A stretch of DNA of 64,000 nt. It comes from Nocardioides sp. zg-1228. GTDB lineage: Bacteria; Actinomycetota; Actinomycetes; Propionibacteriales; Nocardioidaceae. Location of the stretch: the NCBI RefSeq assembly GCF_017086465.1, contig NZ_CP070961.1, forward strand, positions 124,001-188,000. Reading direction: 5' to 3'. The notes under the pieces are model-generated. The model worked only from the letters and a program-made list of their open reading frames with translations. It made no database searches and was not told the DNA's origin. Made by a program: the position numbers and the translations under genes. Numbering within the stretch: position 1 is the stretch's first letter; every line of letters begins with the position of its first letter. Below, piece after piece: positions 47,861 through 59,275 of the stretch.

Positions 47861-47896
47861 CGCGCCATCTGGCTCGTCTCGGTGGCAGGAGCATTG

Positions 47897-49666
47897 GTGG
47901 GCGACGACGCGGGGTGGGTGCGCCCACGGGGGAAGGCGTGGGGCAACGAGGCCCAGCGCGCGGTCCTGCACGCCGTCGCGGAGGACCTGGCGCGCCGCAC
48001 CCAGCACAAGGTCGTGGCCATCGAGGCGCTGCGCACGGACGGCTTCTTGGAGTTCGTGGCGATCGCCGGCGACGACGCGGCTCGCGACAAGATGATCGGC
48101 CAGGCCTCGCCGCTCGCACTCGACCACATCCACGCGCTCGGGGAGGACCTCGCGGGCTGGCGCCACATCGCGGGCGAGCGCCTCGACGACGACACCCGCG
48201 CGTGGCTCGACGAGTACGGCCACAAGCCCGCAACGGCCCCGTCCGGCCTGCCCGACGGGTGGGACCCCGACGACCAGATGCTGCGCCTGCTGGAGAACGA
48301 GGACGGCGACCTGCGCGCGATCGTCTACCTCGACGAGCCGCACTCGGGGCTGCGTCCGACGGCCAAGACGGCGGAGGCGATCAACCTCGAGGTCGGCGCG
48401 ATGTTCGACGCGGTCATCAGCATCGTGGAGCGCGAGCTCTACGGCGAGCAGCTCCGCATGGTCACCCAGGCGCGCCGGGCGATCGAGAGCGTACGCCCCG
48501 GCCTGGGCGCGCAGGAGCTCGTCGGGGAGCTGTCCCGGGCGATGACCGAGGCGATGGACATGGCCGAGGTCGCCGTGGTCGCGACGGGCACCGTGGTCGA
48601 GGGACTCCAGGCCGCACGCGCCGAGCTCGCCGAGCTGATGCGCCACCAGTGGCGCCGGCGTGGGCACGTCGTGGTCGAGACGCAGCGCACCTGGAGCATG
48701 CACGAGGAGTCGATCGAGACACCGGACGCCCTGGTGCGCCTGCTCGACGCCCGCGGCATGGGGTCCGGGCTGCTCGTGCCGATCGGGGCGGGAGAGGAGT
48801 ACCTCGCCACGCTGGTGATGGGACGCGCACCCGACGCGCCGCGCTGGAACGCCTCCGAGATCAACGCCGCCACCACGGTCGCCGGCGACGTGGCACGGCT
48901 GATGCTCGAGGCACGGCTGATGGAGCGCGAGCGGGCGCTCAACGCCCAGCTGCGCGAGGTCAACGACTACCGGCGCGACATGGTGCTGACCCTCGCCCAC
49001 GAGCTCCGCAACCCGGTGAGCGTGCTGTTCACCCACCTCGAGCTGCTCGACCAGGACCCCACGCCCGACGACGTCCGCGACTCCCTCGGGGCGCTCGGCC
49101 GCTCGGCCCGGCGCATCGAGGACATGGTCGCCGACCTGATGACCCTGGCCTCGGTGAGCGACCCCGACAACGGGCCGGCGGCGCTGGAGGTCGACCTGTC
49201 GGCGCTGGTCCGCGAGACCTGCGGCGACCTGGCGTCGACCGCGGCCGCGGCCGGAGTGGAGGTGGATTCCTCGGTGGCCGACGGTCTGACGCTGATCGGC
49301 GAGGCCGCCGGCCTGCAGCGGATGGTGGCCAACCTGGTGGGCAACGCGGTCAAGTACACCCCGGCCGGCGGGCGGGTCGCCCTGGTGGCGTCGGCGCACG
49401 CCGCCGGCGGCGTGGACGGCGTACGGATGACCTGCGCCGACACCGGCATCGGCATCGCTGCCGACGAGCTCGACAAGGTGTTCCAGCCGTTCTTCCGATC
49501 CAGCAGCGCCGAGGCACGGCGGCGTCCGGGGACGGGGCTGGGCCTGGCCATCATCGAGCGCGTCGTGACCACCCACGGGGGCACCCTCGAGGTCACCTCG
49601 ACGCTGGGGGAGGGCACCACGTTCGCCGCGTGGATCCCGGCCGGGGGGCCGCGCCCGCCCGCCTGA
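47897..49666 (+). CDS. Soluble sensor histidine kinase, first of a tandem pair
   Basis: A 589-residue kinase with no membrane helix. Two GAF-like sensor regions (about residues 15-190 and 200-345) precede a HisKA domain with TLAHELRNPVSVL (His368) and a HATPase domain (GNAVKYTP, DTGIGIAADE, GTGLGLAIIE). The start at GTG 47897 has AGGAG six bases upstream. The following gene is a paralogue sharing segments such as GDLRAIVYLDEP versus GDLRALLYLDVP. No response regulator gene is adjacent. The signal is unknown. Confidence 0.88.
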   Translation: MGDDAGWVRPRGKAWGNEAQRAVLHAVAEDLARRTQHKVVAIEALRTDGFLEFVAIAGDDAARDKMIGQASPLALDHIHALGEDLAGWRHIAGERLDDDTRAWLDEYGHKPATAPSGLPDGWDPDDQMLRLLENEDGDLRAIVYLDEPHSGLRPTAKTAEAINLEVGAMFDAVISIVERELYGEQLRMVTQARRAIESVRPGLGAQELVGELSRAMTEAMDMAEVAVVATGTVVEGLQAARAELAELMRHQWRRRGHVVVETQRTWSMHEESIETPDALVRLLDARGMGSGLLVPIGAGEEYLATLVMGRAPDAPRWNASEINAATTVAGDVARLMLEARLMERERALNAQLREVNDYRRDMVLTLAHELRNPVSVLFTHLELLDQDPTPDDVRDSLGALGRSARRIEDMVADLMTLASVSDPDNGPAALEVDLSALVRETCGDLASTAAAAGVEVDSSVADGLTLIGEAAGLQRMVANLVGNAVKYTPAGGRVALVASAHAAGGVDGVRMTCADTGIGIAADELDKVFQPFFRSSSAEARRRPGTGLGLAIIERVVTTHGGTLEVTSTLGEGTTFAAWIPAGGPRPPA

Positions 49667-49772
49667 CGGCGACGCCCGACGGTGAAGACCGGGCCCGGTG
49701 GGTGGATACCGACCGGCGCGACGGGGCCGGCCCCCTACGATCGCCGGTGGGGATGGGGAGGGCGACGACGCC

Positions 49773-51575
49773 ATGGAGCAGGCGCGGACCGAGGAGCGCA
49801 GGACGCGCGACCTCAGCTGGGGTGACGCGCGCGCCCGGGCGTTGATGCACGACCTGGCCCGCGACGCGGCGAGGCGCGCCGGATTCGACGTCTGCGCCAT
49901 CGAGGTCGTGCGGCCCCAGGGTCTGCTCGAGTTCGTCGCGATCGTCGGCGACGAGCCCAACGCGGAGGAGCGGCTCGGCACCGCGTCCAGCCTCGTCGAC
50001 ATGCAGCTCGTCTTCGCACAGGGCGTGCGCCTGGGCCACCTCGTGTGGATCTCGGCCGACAGCCTGTCCGAGGAGGTCCGCGAGAGCATCGACGGCGTGG
50101 TCGTGGTGCCCGAGATCCCGGTGACCGACTGCCCCGACACGTGGCACCCCTTCGACATGCTCGTCGCGGAGATCACCGACGAGCGCGGCGACCTGCGGGC
50201 GCTGCTCTACCTCGACGTCCCGACCGACCTGCGCCGACCCGGCGTCGCGCGCCTCCTCGAGCTGGGCGACGACCTGGAGGTGGTGCTGCGCTCGATCCTC
50301 GCCGTGGTGGAGCGCGAGGAGTACGCCGACCACATGAGGGTCATCCGTGCCACCCGGCGCCTGGCCCGGTCCAACACGGCGCGCCACGACGTCAACCACC
50401 TCCTGCGCGAGGCCCGCTCGACGCTGCTCGGTGCGCTGTCGGTCGACGAGCTCGAGATCCGCGTGTTCTTCCGCGACGATCGCGAAGGCCCCGACGTGCT
50501 GGGCCTCGACACGGTCCCCGAGGTGAGGAGCGCGCTCGACGCCGCCGCCGCCCGCGCCTGGGCGGCACAGCGGGTGACCATCATCGAGCCCGGCCAGGTC
50601 TGGGGCGACGCCGCTCTCGCGGCCCACACCGGCTGGTTCACCGACGCCCTGGGCCTGGCCCGGCTGGAGGCGGTGGTCGTGGCGCCCGTGGGTGTCGACG
50701 ACGAGCTGCTGGGCATGCTCATGTGCGCACGGCGCACCGGCTCACGACGCTGGACCGACAGCGAGGGCCACGCGGCGCTGGAGCTCGGCCACGACCTCGG
50801 TCGCGCCATCGCCAACGCCCGCGCGACCCAGCGCGAACGCCGGCTGCTCGAGGAGCTGCGCGGCGTCGAGGGGGCCCGGCACCGGTTCCTGCGCGAGCTG
50901 ACCCACGAGATCAACAACCCGATGACCGTCATCGCCGCCAACGCGGAGTTCCTGCTCGAGAGCGAGGACGCCGACGCGCAGGACCGCAGGCGCGCGCAGG
51001 CCATCCTGCGCGGCAGCGAGCGACTCGGCCAGCTGCTCGAGGGCCTGGCGATGCTGACCCGGGTCAGCGACCCGCAGCACCGCCCGGCGATGCAGCACGT
51101 CGACCTCGTCCCCGTGGTGGAGGAGACGGTCGCGGCGATGACCGCCGTGGCCGAGCGGTCGGGCGTCACCCTCCAGCTCGTCGGGGACCTGAGCGAGGCC
51201 GTCGTGCTGGGCGACCCGCGCGAGATCGCGAGCGCGGTGTCCAACCTCGTCGACAACGCGGTGAAGTACTCCGACCCCGGCGACGAGGTGTGGCTCGGCA
51301 TCGAGCGCCGCGCCGACGGCGGGCTCTCCTTCTCCTGCAGGGACGAGGGCATCGGGATCTCCGAGGCCGACCAGGCCGACCTGTTCTCGCCACTGTTCCG
51401 CTCGACCAACGAGGAGGCGCTGATGCGCCCGGGCACCGGCCTCGGCCTCGGCATCGTGCGCGAGATCATGCAACGGCACGGCGGGCGCATCGAGATCGAG
51501 TCGGTGCTCGGTCGCGGCACCCGCGTACGCCTGCACTTCCGGCCCCTCGCGCACCACGGGGCCGCGGGGCCCTGA
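49773..51575 (+). CDS. Soluble sensor histidine kinase, second of a tandem pair
   Basis: A 600-residue paralogue of the preceding kinase with the same layout: two GAF-like sensor regions, no membrane helix, HisKA with LTHEINNPMTVI (His378), then HATPase (DNAVKYSDPGD, DEGIGISEAD, GTGLGLGIVRE). The start ATG follows GGGGAGGG with about ten bases between, and TACGAT (49736-49741) may be its -10 box. It has diverged well from its neighbour, so the duplication is old. It ends six bases from the convergent sirtuin gene. Confidence 0.88.
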   Translation: MEQARTEERRTRDLSWGDARARALMHDLARDAARRAGFDVCAIEVVRPQGLLEFVAIVGDEPNAEERLGTASSLVDMQLVFAQGVRLGHLVWISADSLSEEVRESIDGVVVVPEIPVTDCPDTWHPFDMLVAEITDERGDLRALLYLDVPTDLRRPGVARLLELGDDLEVVLRSILAVVEREEYADHMRVIRATRRLARSNTARHDVNHLLREARSTLLGALSVDELEIRVFFRDDREGPDVLGLDTVPEVRSALDAAAARAWAAQRVTIIEPGQVWGDAALAAHTGWFTDALGLARLEAVVVAPVGVDDELLGMLMCARRTGSRRWTDSEGHAALELGHDLGRAIANARATQRERRLLEELRGVEGARHRFLRELTHEINNPMTVIAANAEFLLESEDADAQDRRRAQAILRGSERLGQLLEGLAMLTRVSDPQHRPAMQHVDLVPVVEETVAAMTAVAERSGVTLQLVGDLSEAVVLGDPREIASAVSNLVDNAVKYSDPGDEVWLGIERRADGGLSFSCRDEGIGISEADQADLFSPLFRSTNEEALMRPGTGLGLGIVREIMQRHGGRIEIESVLGRGTRVRLHFRPLAHHGAAGP

Positions 51576-51581
51576 CGCGGC

Positions 51582-52259
51582 TCAGCCCAGCAGCTCGTCG
51601 ACCCAAGCGGGGACGAGCCGGGTGGCCGGGCCCTGCCGGGAGGCGTCGAAGTCGGACGCGCCGGCGCTCGGCTCGAGGTTGAGCTCGAGGGTCTCGCCGG
51701 CGGCCCAGTGGACGAACGCCGCGGCCGGGTAGACGACGCCCGAGGTGCCGATCGAGACGAAGAGGTCGCACCGCTCGAGGGCGTCCTCGACCACGTCCAT
51801 GCCGTAGGGCACCTCGCCGAACCAGACGATGTCGGGACGCAGGTCGCTCGCGCCGCACCCGGGGCACGGCGGCTCGTCAGCCAGGGTGCCGTGCCACTCG
51901 TGCCGCTCGTCGCAGCCGGTGCACCACGCCGCCTGCAGCCGGCCGTGGATGTGGTGGACCCGTCGCGAGCCGGCGCGCTCGTGGAGGTCGTCGACGTTCT
52001 GGGTGACGAGGAGCAGGTCGTCACCGAGGGCGTCCTCGAGGCGGGCGAGCGCGTGGTGTGCGGCGTTGGGCTCGACCCGGGCGAGGGCCGCCCGCCGCGC
52101 GTCGTAGAAGCGCTGCACGAGGCCGGGGTCGTCGGCGTAGGCCTCCGGCGTCGCCACCTGCATCGGGTCGTGGCCCTCCCACAGCCCACCCGCGTCACGG
52201 AAGGTGGTCAGGCCGCTCTCGGCCGAGATGCCCGCCCCGGTCAGCACGACGATCCTCAT
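51582..52259 (-). CDS. cobB: NAD-dependent protein deacylase, sirtuin class III (CobB-like)
   Basis: A 225-residue Sir2 enzyme. Motifs are VVLTGAGISAESG (NAD binding), VTQNVDDLHE and HHIHGRL (catalytic His), and zinc ligands in AWCTGC and PCPGCGA. The FYDARRA segment holds the Tyr-x-x-Arg pair of class III sirtuins that recognises succinyl- or malonyl-lysine, so desuccinylase activity is likely besides deacetylation. TAGGAC lies seven bases before the ATG. Confidence 0.92.
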   Translation of the reverse strand: MRIVVLTGAGISAESGLTTFRDAGGLWEGHDPMQVATPEAYADDPGLVQRFYDARRAALARVEPNAAHHALARLEDALGDDLLLVTQNVDDLHERAGSRRVHHIHGRLQAAWCTGCDERHEWHGTLADEPPCPGCGASDLRPDIVWFGEVPYGMDVVEDALERCDLFVSIGTSGVVYPAAAFVHWAAGETLELNLEPSAGASDFDASRQGPATRLVPAWVDELLG

Positions 52260-52341: not shown

Positions 52342-53145
52342 ATGGCTGACGTCGGAGGGACCCCGGGCGCCGTCGCGTTCGTCGGCGAGTGGGACGGCCC
52401 GGTCGTGGCGACCGCCGTGCACGCCGGACACGACCTGCGCCCCGAGATCGCCGAGGCGATGGTGCTCGACGAGGCGGAGCGCTTCCGCGAGGAGGACCCG
52501 TTCACCGACCGGCTCGCCGCCGTGGTGCCCGACCGGGTGGTGACGCGGCGCTCGCGCTTCGAGGCCGACCTCAACCGGCCGCGCCGCGAGGCCATCTACC
52601 GCAAGCCCGACGACTGCTGGGGGCTCGAGGTGTGGCGCGACGGCGTGCTGTCCGAGGAGCTCTACGAGGGCAGCCTGGCCACCTACGACGCCTTCTACGA
52701 CGCCCTGGCCCCGCGGCTCGACGCGCTCGCCGAGCGCGGACCGTTCGTGCTGCTCGACGTGCACTCCTACAACCACCGCCGCGACGGCGCCGACCGGCCG
52801 GCCGCCCCCGCCGAGGACAACCCGGAGGTCAACGTCGGCACCGGCAGCCTCGACCACGAGCTGTTCGGCCCGTTGGTCGAGCGGTTCATGGCCGACCTGC
52901 GCGACGCGTCGGTGGGCTGCGGGCCGCTCGACGCCCGCGAGAACGTCGTCTTCGAGGGCCGCGGCCTCGCGTGGTGGGTGCACGACCGCTACCCGCGGGT
53001 GGGCTGCGTGCTGGCCATCGAGTTCAAGAAGACCTTCATGGACGAGTGGTCCGGCGAGCTGGACGCCGAGCGGTTCCGCCGCGCCCAGGAAGGCCTCGCC
53101 GCAGCCGTGCCGGGCCTCCACGACGAGCTCGAGCGCCTGCGGTGA
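52342..53145 (+). CDS. N-formylglutamate amidohydrolase-like enzyme, first gene of the triad
   Basis: A 267-residue hydrolase of the FGase family. It contains VATAVHAGHDLRPEI, TRRSRFEADLNRPR, LLDVHSYNHRRDG (metal-binding His cluster) and CVLAIEFKKTFMDEW. True FGases cleave N-formylglutamate in histidine degradation, but no other hut gene is present. Here its stop overlaps the start of a DUF1704 peptidase gene, which in turn overlaps an ATP-grasp gene. The substrate is therefore more likely an N-acyl or peptide amide produced by that system; this is an inference. Confidence 0.82.
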   Translation: MADVGGTPGAVAFVGEWDGPVVATAVHAGHDLRPEIAEAMVLDEAERFREEDPFTDRLAAVVPDRVVTRRSRFEADLNRPRREAIYRKPDDCWGLEVWRDGVLSEELYEGSLATYDAFYDALAPRLDALAERGPFVLLDVHSYNHRRDGADRPAAPAEDNPEVNVGTGSLDHELFGPLVERFMADLRDASVGCGPLDARENVVFEGRGLAWWVHDRYPRVGCVLAIEFKKTFMDEWSGELDAERFRRAQEGLAAAVPGLHDELERLR

Positions 53146-54329
53146 GCGACGGCGACCCGGCCCGACCGGGTGCCGGGCTCAGCGCCGCCGACCTGGCCGT
53201 CGACCACCGACTCTCCCTGCTCGCCCAGAGCTTCCGCTTCCTGCTCGACGTCACGCCGGTCGACGCCGACGACCTGCGTGAGGACTTCCTGGCCGGTCGG
53301 CAGCCCGACCCGCCGTTCACCTACCGCGAGCTCGAGACCGACCCGGCGGTCGTACGCGCCGAGCTCGACGACATCGACCCCGGTGCGGTCGACGACGCCG
53401 TCCTGGGCCAGCTGCTGCGGGCCAAGCAGCGCGAGATGGAGCTCCAGCTCGACATGCTGGCGGCGCGCGACACCGAGGACTTCCTCCCGCTGAGCGTGGA
53501 GCTCTATGGCGGCGTGTCGCCGGCGCTGCGCGCCCAGGCGGAGGCGCTGCTCGCCGGCATCACCCGCACCGAGCCCAGCGGCACGGCCCTCGACGCCGAG
53601 GAGTTCCTCGCGCTCGCGGACGCCGAGATCGCGCGCTACCGCGAGGAGGACCCCGACCTCGACATGCACGCCGAGATCCGCTCGGACGTCAACGGCGTGA
53701 TGGTCTCGGGTGACGTGCTCCTCATCGGACCCGAGACCCGGGTGCAGCGCGCCCGCGCGCAGGCGCTGCTGCACCACGAGGTCGGCACCCACCTGGTGAC
53801 GCAGGCCAACGGCAGCCACCAGCCGATCAAGGTGCTCGGCGTCGGGCTGGCGGGCTACGACGAGACGCAGGAGGGACTCGCCGTGCTCGCCGAGATCGCC
53901 TGCGGCGGCCTGACGGCGTTCCGGCTGCGCCAGCTCGCCGGCCGCGTCGTGACGGTGCACCGGATGATCGGCGGCGCGACGTTCGCCGAGGCCCACGAGG
54001 CGCTCGTCGCCGACGACTTCCCCAGCGCCAGCGCCTGGACCACGGTCATGCGGGTCTACCGCTCCGGCGGCATGACCAAGGACGCGATCTACCTGCGGGG
54101 CCTCGTCGAGCTGCTCGACCACCTCGGCTCCGGCGGCTCGCTCGACCAGCTCTGGCTCGGGAAGTTCTCCCTGCGCGACCTGCCCCTGGTCGGGGACCTC
54201 GAGTCCCGCGGGCTGCTGCACCCGCCCCGGGTGCTGCCGCGCTACCTGCGCGACCCGGCCGCGCACGACCACCTGGCCCGCGCGGTCGGCACCGACGATC
54301 TCAGCACACTCCTGGAGGGACCCGCATGA
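53142..54329 (+). CDS. DUF1704 metallopeptidase (HExxxH/QEGLA family)
   Basis: A 395-residue protein. The zinc motif is LHHEVGTHLV, with His212, Glu213 and His217, followed by ETQEGLAVLAE (Gln243-Glu244), the family's QEGLA motif that supplies the third ligand. Members are labelled flavohaemoglobin expression-modulating proteins; eukaryotic relatives (MATCAP) are carboxypeptidases that remove the terminal tyrosine of alpha-tubulin. GTG start overlaps the upstream stop; its stop overlaps the ATP-grasp ATG. A carboxypeptidase role on a small peptide or protein tail is plausible here. Confidence 0.85.
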   Translation: MSDGDPARPGAGLSAADLAVDHRLSLLAQSFRFLLDVTPVDADDLREDFLAGRQPDPPFTYRELETDPAVVRAELDDIDPGAVDDAVLGQLLRAKQREMELQLDMLAARDTEDFLPLSVELYGGVSPALRAQAEALLAGITRTEPSGTALDAEEFLALADAEIARYREEDPDLDMHAEIRSDVNGVMVSGDVLLIGPETRVQRARAQALLHHEVGTHLVTQANGSHQPIKVLGVGLAGYDETQEGLAVLAEIACGGLTAFRLRQLAGRVVTVHRMIGGATFAEAHEALVADDFPSASAWTTVMRVYRSGGMTKDAIYLRGLVELLDHLGSGGSLDQLWLGKFSLRDLPLVGDLESRGLLHPPRVLPRYLRDPAAHDHLARAVGTDDLSTLLEGPA

Positions 54330-55366
54330 AGATCGGATTCGTCGTCAACGACATCGAGACGGAGAAGGCCGAGTACACCACCAACCGCCTCGCCATGGCC
54401 GCCAAGGAGATGGGGCACGAGGCCTGGTACATGGGCATCGGCGACTTCGCCTACGAGCCCGACGGGTCGTTGAGCACCAAGGCCCGCGCGGGTCACGCCA
54501 AGACCTACCGCTCGCTCGACCGGCACCTCGCCGACGTGCAGAAGCCCGACGTCGAGCAGCTCATCGGCCTCGACGAGTTCGACGTGGTGATGCTGCGCAA
54601 CGACCCGGCCGACGACGCCGAGACCGACCCGTGGCGCAACAACGCGGGCGTCGCCTTCGGCCAGCTCATCGCCTCCAGCGGGGTGCTCGTGGTCAACGAC
54701 CCCACCAGCCTCGCCAACGCGCTGTCCAAGGCCTACTTCCAGCACTTCCCCGAGATCGTGCGACCGCGCACGCTCATCTCGCGCGACGAGGACATGATCG
54801 AGGACTTCATCACCGACCTCGGCGGCAAGGCGGTGCTCAAGCCTCTGCAGGGCTCGGGTGGCGCGGGTGTGTTCCTCGTCGACCGCAAGGAGGCGCCCAA
54901 CCTCAAGCAGATCATCGAGGCCATCTCCCGCGACGGCTACGTCGTGGCCCAGGAGTACCTCCCCGAGGCGGCCAAGGGCGACGTGCGGATGTTCGTGATG
55001 AACGGCCGGCCGCTGGTCGTCGACGGCGAGTACGCGGCGTTCCGGCGCACCCCCTCCACCAAGGACATCCGCTCCAACATGTCCGCCGGCGGCAAGGCCG
55101 AGAAGGTCAAGGTCACCGACGACATGCTCGCGATGGTCGAGGTGGTGCGGCCCAAGCTCGTCGCCGACGGGATGTTCCTCGTCGGCCTCGACATCGTGGG
55201 CGACAAGCTGATGGAGATCAACGTCTTCAGCCCCGGCGGCCTCGGCAGCGCCCACGCGCTCTACGAGGTCAACTTCGCCCCCGCGATCATCGCCGAGCTG
55301 GAGCGCAAGGTGGACATCCGCCGGCACTACCCGGAGATCGACAACCACACCCTCGCGACCAGCTGA
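54326..55366 (+). CDS. Glutathione synthetase-like ATP-grasp ligase
   Basis: A 346-residue enzyme. It has an N-terminal pre-ATP-grasp domain starting MKIGFVVNDIETEKAEYTTN, the ATP lid loop LQGSGGAGVFLV, DVRMFVMNGRPLVVDGEYAA and the magnesium-binding block LMEINVFSPGGLG. ATP-grasp enzymes of this type join an amino group to a carboxylate. True glutathione synthesis is unusual in actinobacteria, which use mycothiol, and no gshA is adjacent. It is the last gene of a triad with two amide hydrolases, so it probably makes the bond that the partners process. Confidence 0.85.
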   Translation: MKIGFVVNDIETEKAEYTTNRLAMAAKEMGHEAWYMGIGDFAYEPDGSLSTKARAGHAKTYRSLDRHLADVQKPDVEQLIGLDEFDVVMLRNDPADDAETDPWRNNAGVAFGQLIASSGVLVVNDPTSLANALSKAYFQHFPEIVRPRTLISRDEDMIEDFITDLGGKAVLKPLQGSGGAGVFLVDRKEAPNLKQIIEAISRDGYVVAQEYLPEAAKGDVRMFVMNGRPLVVDGEYAAFRRTPSTKDIRSNMSAGGKAEKVKVTDDMLAMVEVVRPKLVADGMFLVGLDIVGDKLMEINVFSPGGLGSAHALYEVNFAPAIIAELERKVDIRRHYPEIDNHTLATS

Positions 55367-57759: not shown

Positions 57760-57775
57760 TCAGTAGTACCAGGGG
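57760..57775. repeat. Right attachment repeat (menB stop region)
   Basis: Identical to 55394-55409 and contained in menB: it covers the stop codon and the last four codons. Confidence 0.8.
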
Positions 57776-58704
57776 TAGGGCGACCAGTCGGGCTCGCGCT
57801 TCTCCAGGAACTGGTCGCGTCCCTCCTGCGCCTCGTCGGTCATGTAGGCCAGGCGGGTCGTCTCGCCGGCGAAGAGCTGCTGGCCGACGAGGCCGTCGTC
57901 GAGGAGGTTGAAGGAGTACTTCAGCATCCGCTGGGCGGTCGGGGACTTGCCGTTGATCTTCCGGCCCCAGTCGAGCGCGACCTTCTCCAGCTCGGCGTGC
58001 GCGACGACGCGGTTGACCGCGCCCATCCGGTGCATCTCCTCGGCGTCGTACTCGTCGCCGAGGAAGAAGATCTCGCGGGCGAGCTTCTGCCCCACCTGGC
58101 GCGCGAGGTAGGCCGAGCCGTAGCCGCCGTCGAACGAGCCGACGTCGGCGTCGGTCTGCTTGAAGCGGGCGTGCTCGCGGCTGGCGAGGGTGAGGTCGGC
58201 GACGACGTGGAGGCTGTGCCCGCCGCCGGCCGCCCAGCCCGGGACCACGCAGATGACGACCTTCGGCATGAAGCGGATCAGCCGCTGGCACTCCAGGATG
58301 TGCAGGCGCGCGAGCCTGGCCTTGTCGATGGGGCTGGGCTCCTCGGCCCCGGTGTCGGTGGCGCCGGCGGAGGTGTCCTCGTACTGGTAGCCGGCGCGCC
58401 CACGGATGCGCTGGTCGCCGCCGGTGCAGAAGGCCCACTTGCCGTTCTTGGCGCTCGGTCCGTTGCCGGTCAGGATCACGCAGCCGACGTCGGCCGACGT
58501 GCGCGCGTGCTCGAGGGTGCGCAGCAGCTCGTCGACGGTGTGCGGGCGGAACGCGTTGAGCACGTCGGGGCGGTCGAACGCGATGCGCACGGTGCCGTGC
58601 TCGCGCGCACGGTGGTAGGTCAGGTCGGTGAGGTCGTCGAAGCCGGGCACCACGTCCCAGTCCTCGGGGTCGAAGATCTCACTGACGCCCTCGATCGCAC
58701 TCAT
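57760..58704 (-). CDS. menB: 1,4-dihydroxy-2-naphthoyl-CoA synthase
   Basis: A 314-residue crotonase-fold enzyme that closes the second ring in menaquinone synthesis. It has the oxyanion-hole and bicarbonate/anion-site region FCTGGDQRIRG, the helix WAAGGGHSLHVVADLTLAS and the active-site loop VGSFDGGYGSAYLAR. The C-terminus SPYPWYY is also typical. The length equals M. tuberculosis MenB. An integrated element abuts its 3' end without damaging the protein. TAGCCT lies eight bases before the ATG. Confidence 0.96.
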   Translation of the reverse strand: MSAIEGVSEIFDPEDWDVVPGFDDLTDLTYHRAREHGTVRIAFDRPDVLNAFRPHTVDELLRTLEHARTSADVGCVILTGNGPSAKNGKWAFCTGGDQRIRGRAGYQYEDTSAGATDTGAEEPSPIDKARLARLHILECQRLIRFMPKVVICVVPGWAAGGGHSLHVVADLTLASREHARFKQTDADVGSFDGGYGSAYLARQVGQKLAREIFFLGDEYDAEEMHRMGAVNRVVAHAELEKVALDWGRKINGKSPTAQRMLKYSFNLLDDGLVGQQLFAGETTRLAYMTDEAQEGRDQFLEKREPDWSPYPWYY

Positions 58705-58834
58705 GGATCCGGAGGCTATCGCCCGATGGTCCCGTGGGAGGCGGCTGCCCCGAGGCCCGCCCGCCGACCGCCCCCTGCGGCCCCACCCCGACGGGGACTG
58801 GAAGATCGCCGCCGCCCGTGGTGTTGTGGCAGGC

Positions 58835-59275
58835 ATGGCACTGACAGGAACGTACGTCCCCAGCAGCTCCGAGTGGGTCCGCAACCAGGTGGCCGAGTTC
58901 GAGGCGAGTGACGGCCAGCGGGCCAACACGCTGGGCGACACCGACTACCCGATCGTGGTCGTGACCTCGGTCGGCGCGAAGTCGGGCAACCTGCGCAAGA
59001 ACCCGGTGATGCGGGTCGAGCGCGACGGCGCCTACCTCGCGGTCGCCTCCAAGGGCGGCGCCCCGGACAACCCGGAGTGGTACTACAACTTCGTCGCCCA
59101 CCCCGAGGTCGAGCTGCAGGACGGGGCGGAGAAGCACGTCTACACCGCCCGCATCCTCGAGGGTGAGGAGCGCGCCGACTGGTGGGAGCACGCGGTCGCC
59201 ACGTGGCCGACGTACGCCTCCTACCAGGAGAAGACCGACCGCGAGATCCCGCTCTTCCTGCTCGAGCGCGCCTGA
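58835..59275 (+). CDS. Deazaflavin (F420)-dependent nitroreductase family protein
   Basis: A 146-residue split-barrel protein of the Ddn family. Typical segments are VVVTSVGAKSGNLRKNPVMR (cofactor-phosphate binding), SKGGAPDNPEWYYNFVAHPE and ARILEGEERADWWEHAVATW. M. tuberculosis Ddn reduces quinones and nitroimidazoles with F420H2. It lies next to menB, and Ddn enzymes can act on menaquinone, but a functional link is only suggested by position. Confidence 0.88.
   Translation: MALTGTYVPSSSEWVRNQVAEFEASDGQRANTLGDTDYPIVVVTSVGAKSGNLRKNPVMRVERDGAYLAVASKGGAPDNPEWYYNFVAHPEVELQDGAEKHVYTARILEGEERADWWEHAVATWPTYASYQEKTDREIPLFLLERA

Follow-up and report, generated by a model that had tools for sequence, protein, structure and literature searches.

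What would a bacterium do with a ligase expected to form amide bonds and two zinc hydrolases expected to break them, all encoded in one overlapping string of genes? This question is raised by three adjacent genes of Nocardioides sp. zg-1228, which lie in a window of 64,000 nucleotides (positions 124001-188000 of the single 4.05-Mb chromosome). The genes encode an N-formylglutamate-amidohydrolase (FGase)-like zinc hydrolase of 267 aa (FG; 52342-53145 of the window), a MATCAP/DUF1704 (TIGR02421) metallopeptidase of 395 aa (MC; 53142-54329) and a GshB-like ATP-grasp ligase of 346 aa belonging to subfamily NF009110 (AG; 54326-55366). All three are open, lie on the forward strand and, as originally predicted, overlap stop-to-start. 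The overlaps are of 4 bp at both junctions, GTGA between FG and MC, which starts with GTG, and ATGA between MC and AG, which starts with ATG. Here we report that this triad is conserved as a unit in at least seven phyla, and we tentatively propose that FG-MC-AG is one functional module that adds amino acids to and trims them from a peptide-like molecule, the amino acid most likely being L-glutamate.

The triad is conserved far beyond chance

Co-occurrence was examined in a phylum sample of 296 actinobacterial genomes, our sole unbiased test. Profile searches detected MC in 12 of these genomes and the AG subfamily, which is set apart from other ATP-grasp proteins by a score gap between 332 and 89 bits, in seven. 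MC adjoined AG in all seven (hypergeometric P ~2e-11). A broader collection was assembled with a profile derived from members of triads and of MC-AG pairs, and consisted of the best 80 of 520 matches drawn from the genomes of 84,980 species. FG-MC-AG was contiguous and kept its order in 73 of the 80 loci, with representatives in Actinomycetota, Planctomycetota, Bacteroidota, Calditrichota, Gemmatimonadota, Campylobacterota and Pseudomonadota. The same order was found on plasmids of Mesorhizobium, Sinorhizobium (pSymB), Shinella, Aminobacter and Pararhizobium, and the hosts include the model symbiont Sinorhizobium meliloti, again on pSymB. The nearest named relatives at the locus are from Nocardioides (MC identity 78-89% in the closest eleven), and the junction between MC and AG has the offset seen in the window in 73 of 109 junctions. 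The distance matrices of FG, MC and AG from 55 loci correlated at 0.80-0.86, a level reached by none of 1000 permutations, in a test that does not separate co-function from shared host descent. The co-occurrence probability and the order conserved in seven phyla together confirm that the arrangement is far beyond chance, and the association of the three families is recurrent rather than sporadic.

Three loci are recorded separately. A metagenome-assembled contig labelled 'Acidobacteria' carries a triad whose MC is 62% identical to the Nocardioides MC and is actinobacteria-like; the assembly was probably mis-binned and was therefore left out of the phylum count. Sinorhizobium medicae ml29 (locus L166, 3396-6554) has two group II intron reverse transcriptase genes between the annotated FG and MC-AG. 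A divergent DUF1704 gene is present in the unverified record of Pseudomonas phage Y1. This is the only phage case found and may be contamination, and phage cargo was rejected as an explanation of the triad on the grounds of this single divergent match.

The catalytic residues of all three proteins are retained

AG scored 447 bits against the NF009110/PRK12458 'glutathione synthetase' model, over its cut-off of 408. It fell below both GshB equivalogs (210.7 vs 272 bits for NF003573 and 190.5 vs 299 bits for TIGR01380) and below the RimK model TIGR00768 (80.5 vs 143.4 bits). AG shares its fold with Escherichia coli GshB and aligns with it end-to-end, with E values of 1.7e-33 for the window protein alone and 5e-102 for a profile including the GshB sequence; the nearest solved structures are GshB (1gsa), followed by the RimK ligases. 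The ATP- and Mg-binding residues are likewise common to both. K172, D289, E297 and N299 were present in every untruncated copy of AG, the Mg ligands E297 and N299 being part of the motif EINVFSPGG (55214-55240, forward strand). In contrast, the acceptor-side motifs differ from those of GshB. The AG loops RSN-x-x-GG and SPG, the latter found in nearly all copies, are like those of RimK (RSNLHRGG and SPG), whereas GshB has RGNLAAGG and SPTC. AG thus forms a separate subfamily that always adjoins MC in the sampled genomes, and is very unlikely to be the ordinary glutathione enzyme that the original prediction had named as its own possible undoing.

MC matched the MATCAP family PF08014 with 266.5 bits (cut-off 27, E 4.4e-79). 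It scored 306.4 bits against the QEGLA equivalog TIGR02421, below the cut-off of 338.65 that no actinobacterial MC copy reached. The zinc motif HEVGTH (HExxxH, H212-H217; 53775-53792, forward strand) retains H212, E213 and H217 in all 115 triad MCs, and so does QEGLAV (53868-53885, forward strand) for Q243 and the third zinc ligand E244, which aligns with the EEG motif of KIAA0895L. R304, D314 and Y317 were also invariant in the alignment. Human KIAA0895L (7z5g; profile E 1.6e-13) is the one relative of MC with a solved structure, and its HExGTH, QP and EGLA stretches align. MC therefore has the HExxxH, distal Glu and flanking motifs of the MATCAP/TMCP tubulin carboxypeptidases. However, these are eukaryotic enzymes that are not encoded with their ligase, and bacteria have no such tubulin tail. 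The original prediction had drawn a parallel to the removal of tyrosine from tubulin. The parallel extends further, as human MATCAPs (TMCP1 and TMCP2) remove C-terminal Glu as well as Tyr and shorten polyglutamate chains, and in Tetrahymena the family member acts as a deglutamylase (PMC10499314).

The QEGLA proteins seen in Pseudoalteromonas and Legionella stand alone, with neither FG nor AG alongside, and share 25-27% identity with MC. PA3697, compared here by annotation only and presumably the namesake of the TIGR02421 family, represents a stand-alone type that shares this annotation with MC. A role of the PA3697-type protein in fhp regulation in Pseudomonas aeruginosa is cited in PMC8070244.

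FG matched the FGase family PF05013 with 75.1 bits (cut-off 28.9, E 1.2e-20) and is the only PF05013 protein in the genome, the rest of which was searched family by family. Searches of PDB sequences with FG and with the N-terminal domain of longer MC proteins gave no significant match, and structure models were therefore used for both. The AlphaFold model of FG (pLDDT 92.9) matched FGase structures with Z scores of 22-24, the best being HutG (2q7s, Z 24.1). The next-best matches, with Z scores of 11-12, were M14 carboxypeptidases and poly-gamma-glutamate hydrolases (21dc, 3a9l and 5onj). Although FG and HutG have a common fold, their identity is 16-18%, and FG is linked or fused to MC and not to hut genes. 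The motif HAGHDLR (H27 and H30; 52420-52440, forward strand) is a candidate metal/catalytic site, with H27 in 90/90 and H30 in 89/90 aligned triad FGs. H141 in DVHSYNHRR (52762-52764, forward strand) is a candidate metal ligand and was invariant in 92 FGs. Since these catalytic residues are essentially invariant, FG, MC and AG look, from their sequences, like working enzymes and not relics.

MC and AG form the core and FG probably acts with MC

At least nine actinobacterial loci, for example that of Kribbella, have MC-AG without FG. In each of the eight MC-AG cases tested, no FG was present anywhere in the genome, so MC-AG is the minimal core and FG is accessory. Four Planctomycetota loci have doubled sets in the order FG-MC-AG-AG-MC-AG with catalytic residues retained, which may serve two acceptors or two successive residues.

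FG and MC also occur fused. In Photobacterium GJ3 a single protein, encoded directly downstream of AG, comprises an FG domain (38-264) and an MC domain (298-651), and Vibrio HDW18 has the same fusion but without AG. We know of no fused FG domain in the human MATCAP members. Outside the actinobacteria with a short MC, such as that in the window, MC has an extra N-terminal domain of ~240 residues that Pfam does not recognise. This domain matched the FG profile with an hhalign probability of 95.6% (E 1.2e-8), and the best match of its AlphaFold model (pLDDT 88.7) was the FGase 2q7s (Z 13.2 over 183 residues at 3.5 A). The first HxGH stretch is missing from this domain, and most copies have Trp where FG has H141. 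Given these losses and the FG-like profile and model, the domain is best read as a catalytically dead copy of FG. The adjacency of the genes, the fusion of an apparently active FG and the fusion of a degenerate one suggest that MC acts jointly with the FG fold, the two hydrolases probably functioning as a single assembly.

No further partner recurs at the loci

The original prediction had proposed a search for a conserved fourth partner or short peptide, and neither was found. All-against-all clustering of the open reading frames (ORFs) within 7 kb of 48 representative loci returned the three triad families, their antisense and frame shadows and generic genes. There was no fourth partner, and no transporter, modifying enzyme, other biosynthetic gene or substrate-specific regulator recurred in these loci. 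No ORF of 20-75 aa that might encode a carrier or precursor peptide was common across genera; wide groups of short ORFs occurred only within Nocardioides, where most of them run antisense to the adjacent Sir2 gene. The module is therefore self-contained, and its substrates would have to be drawn from central metabolism or specified by genes at other loci. A defence system was rejected as a candidate, there being no PADLOC match.

A proposed add-and-trim module

In the proposed module, AG would use ATP to make the acyl-phosphate of a peptide-like carboxylate and join an amino acid to it, as expected from its family. MC, a zinc carboxypeptidase by family, would remove C-terminal residues from the product of AG or from a related tail. 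FG, docked on MC, would hydrolyse an amide of the N-acyl-glutamate type that MC is unable to cleave. In this way the module might control how long, or how abundant, a small glutamyl peptide or tail becomes, possibly as a response to salinity. L-glutamate is the likeliest amino acid because MATCAPs remove Glu as well as Tyr, N-acyl-Glu is the substrate type of the FGase fold, which is also similar to that of poly-glutamate hydrolases, and the motifs of AG are RimK-like.

A ligation/removal cycle in bacteria is not unprecedented, as the RimABK and RloABC operons encode ATP-grasp proteins and peptidases that act on glutamate tails. In RimABK, which polyglutamylates the Pseudomonas ribosome, RimB trims the polyglutamate tail built by RimK on RpsF, and a RimB-RimK hybrid exists (PMC7343187, PMC11957791). 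Here an ATP-grasp ligase of the same superfamily as AG is co-transcribed with a peptidase that trims its product; the triad likewise encodes a ligase and peptidases in one operon, the trimming of the ligase product being part of the proposal. However, RimB belongs to the retropepsin-like aspartic peptidases and RimA is a phosphodiesterase, whereas the triad has two zinc enzymes of the MATCAP and FGase folds and a ligase of the GshB branch. RloABC of P. aeruginosa similarly places a peptidase and an ATP-grasp protein in one three-gene operon, and is tied to low osmolarity. The RloA peptidases are needed in hypo-osmotic conditions, mutations in rloB or rloC suppress their loss, and glutamate-rich substrates are cleaved in vitro (PMC12239564). 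This system has a secreted aspartic peptidase with a membrane protein of the inactive-transglutaminase type and has no MATCAP or FGase. The three triad enzymes are probably soluble. The triad has no aspartic retropepsin-like peptidase and no RimA or RloB partner, its peptidases being of the MATCAP and FGase families. The cycle suggested by the original prediction is a hypothesis that fits the enzyme families and both precedents, to which the triad would be a metallopeptidase counterpart.

Published salinity data from Photobacterium damselae provide a possible physiological setting. At 1% compared to 3% NaCl, A0J47_RS17020 ('GshB') was up 38-fold, A0J47_RS17025 ('QEGLA') 27-fold and RimK 52-fold (PMC10308900). 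Judging by annotation and by synteny with Photobacterium GJ3, the induced pair is probably AG and the FG-MC fusion, and osmotic adjustment is by this analogy a possible role of the module.

Several observations weigh against the proposal. The salinity data are from a single, distant species, in which the genes were identified by name and synteny. FG is not essential to the core, an acceptor peptide is not encoded nearby, and glutamate is a guess at the level of the families. AG is closer overall to GshB than to RimK, which favours a small peptide over a protein tail as the product.

Alternative explanations

The main rival is a one-way pathway to a small molecule, which we consider somewhat unlikely. 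FG and MC would deprotect or trim a precursor peptide, and AG would join a different amino acid to it, giving a glutathione-like peptide that serves as thiol, osmolyte or cofactor. The placement of AG in the GshB branch suits this scheme, as do the doubled Planctomycetota sets, which could support a multi-step route, and osmolyte operons that combine a ligase with a peptidase are known (NAGGN, PMC8070244). However, a pathway of this kind is at odds with the lack of any recurrent transporter, modifying enzyme or other biosynthetic gene in the 48 loci, and with the complete absence of FG from MC-AG-only genomes.

Catabolism or detoxification appears improbable. The hydrolases would degrade an exogenous peptide or antibiotic and AG would conjugate or recycle a fragment, a role in keeping with carriage on rhizobial plasmids and a patchy distribution. 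It is opposed by the same lack of recurrent transporters, by the lack of substrate-specific regulators and by the negative PADLOC result.

The original prediction had set aside glutathione synthesis and histidine degradation on the grounds that no gshA and no hut genes accompany the triad. This holds for the neighbourhood of the triad but not for the genome, in which a YbdK-family protein encoded at 3.357 Mb scores over the cut-off of a model for glutamate-cysteine ligase, hutI and hutF are found at ~3.72 Mb beside an M20-type amidohydrolase, and hutU and hutH at ~3.74 Mb on the same chromosome. A supposed lack of gamma-glutamylcysteine is therefore no argument, and the case against glutathione is the sequence of AG itself. 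If AG were a genuine glutathione synthetase supplied by the YbdK-type ligase, with MC and FG degrading glutathione, this would agree with the annotation of AG and with the match to the ligase model. This reading is very unlikely, since AG reached 211 bits for GshB against a cut-off of 272, the SPTC of GshB is SPGG in nearly all AG copies and other positions differ family-wide. To our knowledge, most triad hosts outside Proteobacteria do not make glutathione.

That FG is simply HutG, with MC and AG as incidental neighbours, is hardly credible even though FG is the sole FGase-family protein and the product of HutF is N-formylglutamate, because hutF and hutI adjoin their own M20-type amidohydrolase ~0.5 Mb away, and FG is linked to MC-AG and not to hut genes in seven phyla and is fused to MC in Vibrionaceae. 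As the sole FGase of the genome, FG may possibly hydrolyse N-formylglutamate as a side role; its conserved context is nevertheless MC-AG.

Significance of the add-and-trim reading

Each of the protein families is already known, as are ATP-grasp/peptidase operons as a kind. We found no description in the open literature searched of such an operon that includes two zinc hydrolases, of FG-MC fusions, of the dead FG domain or of the wide, self-contained conservation. The triad genes are misleadingly named across the seven phyla as glutathione synthetase, flavohemoglobin-modulating protein and N-formylglutamate amidohydrolase. If the triad does add and trim amino acids, this would give bacterial MATCAPs a function, bear on the origin of the tubulin-tail enzymes and place another bacterial ligase/peptidase system beside RimABK and RloABC. 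A bolder version, which we regard as doubtful, is that the triad is a further bacterial glutamylation/deglutamylation system, based on metallo-hydrolases, in which MATCAP does the trimming in a tail cycle driven by ATP-grasp ligation, the animal tubulin detyrosinases/deglutamylases being a eukaryotic redeployment of a tail-trimming enzyme from bacteria. The 'glutathione synthetase' and the 'flavohemoglobin expression-modulating QEGLA protein' would then be wrongly named parts of one module.

Genes flanking the triad

A Sir2-family deacylase gene (51582-52259, reverse strand) is divergent from FG at a distance of ~80 bp. Upstream of FG in many Nocardioides triads there are ORFs antisense to this gene, which appears to be a genus-level neighbour, with no recurrence seen beyond Nocardioides. 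Further upstream, two tandem, similar long ORFs (47882-49666 and 49698-51575, forward strand) have C-termini that by eye are histidine-kinase-like (HELRNP/HEINNP, GTGLGL), and are possibly a duplicated sensor pair. Just 3' of AG are mobile-element remains, namely an Unstab_antitox-like addiction-module component (PF09720; 55785-56030, reverse strand) and a shortened tyrosine-recombinase ORF (PF00589; 55958-56701, forward strand). They are followed by menB (57760-58941, reverse strand), which encodes a 1,4-dihydroxy-2-naphthoyl-CoA synthase of the PRK08321 type; its longest ORF has ~80 extra N-terminal residues, probably reflecting start-codon choice.

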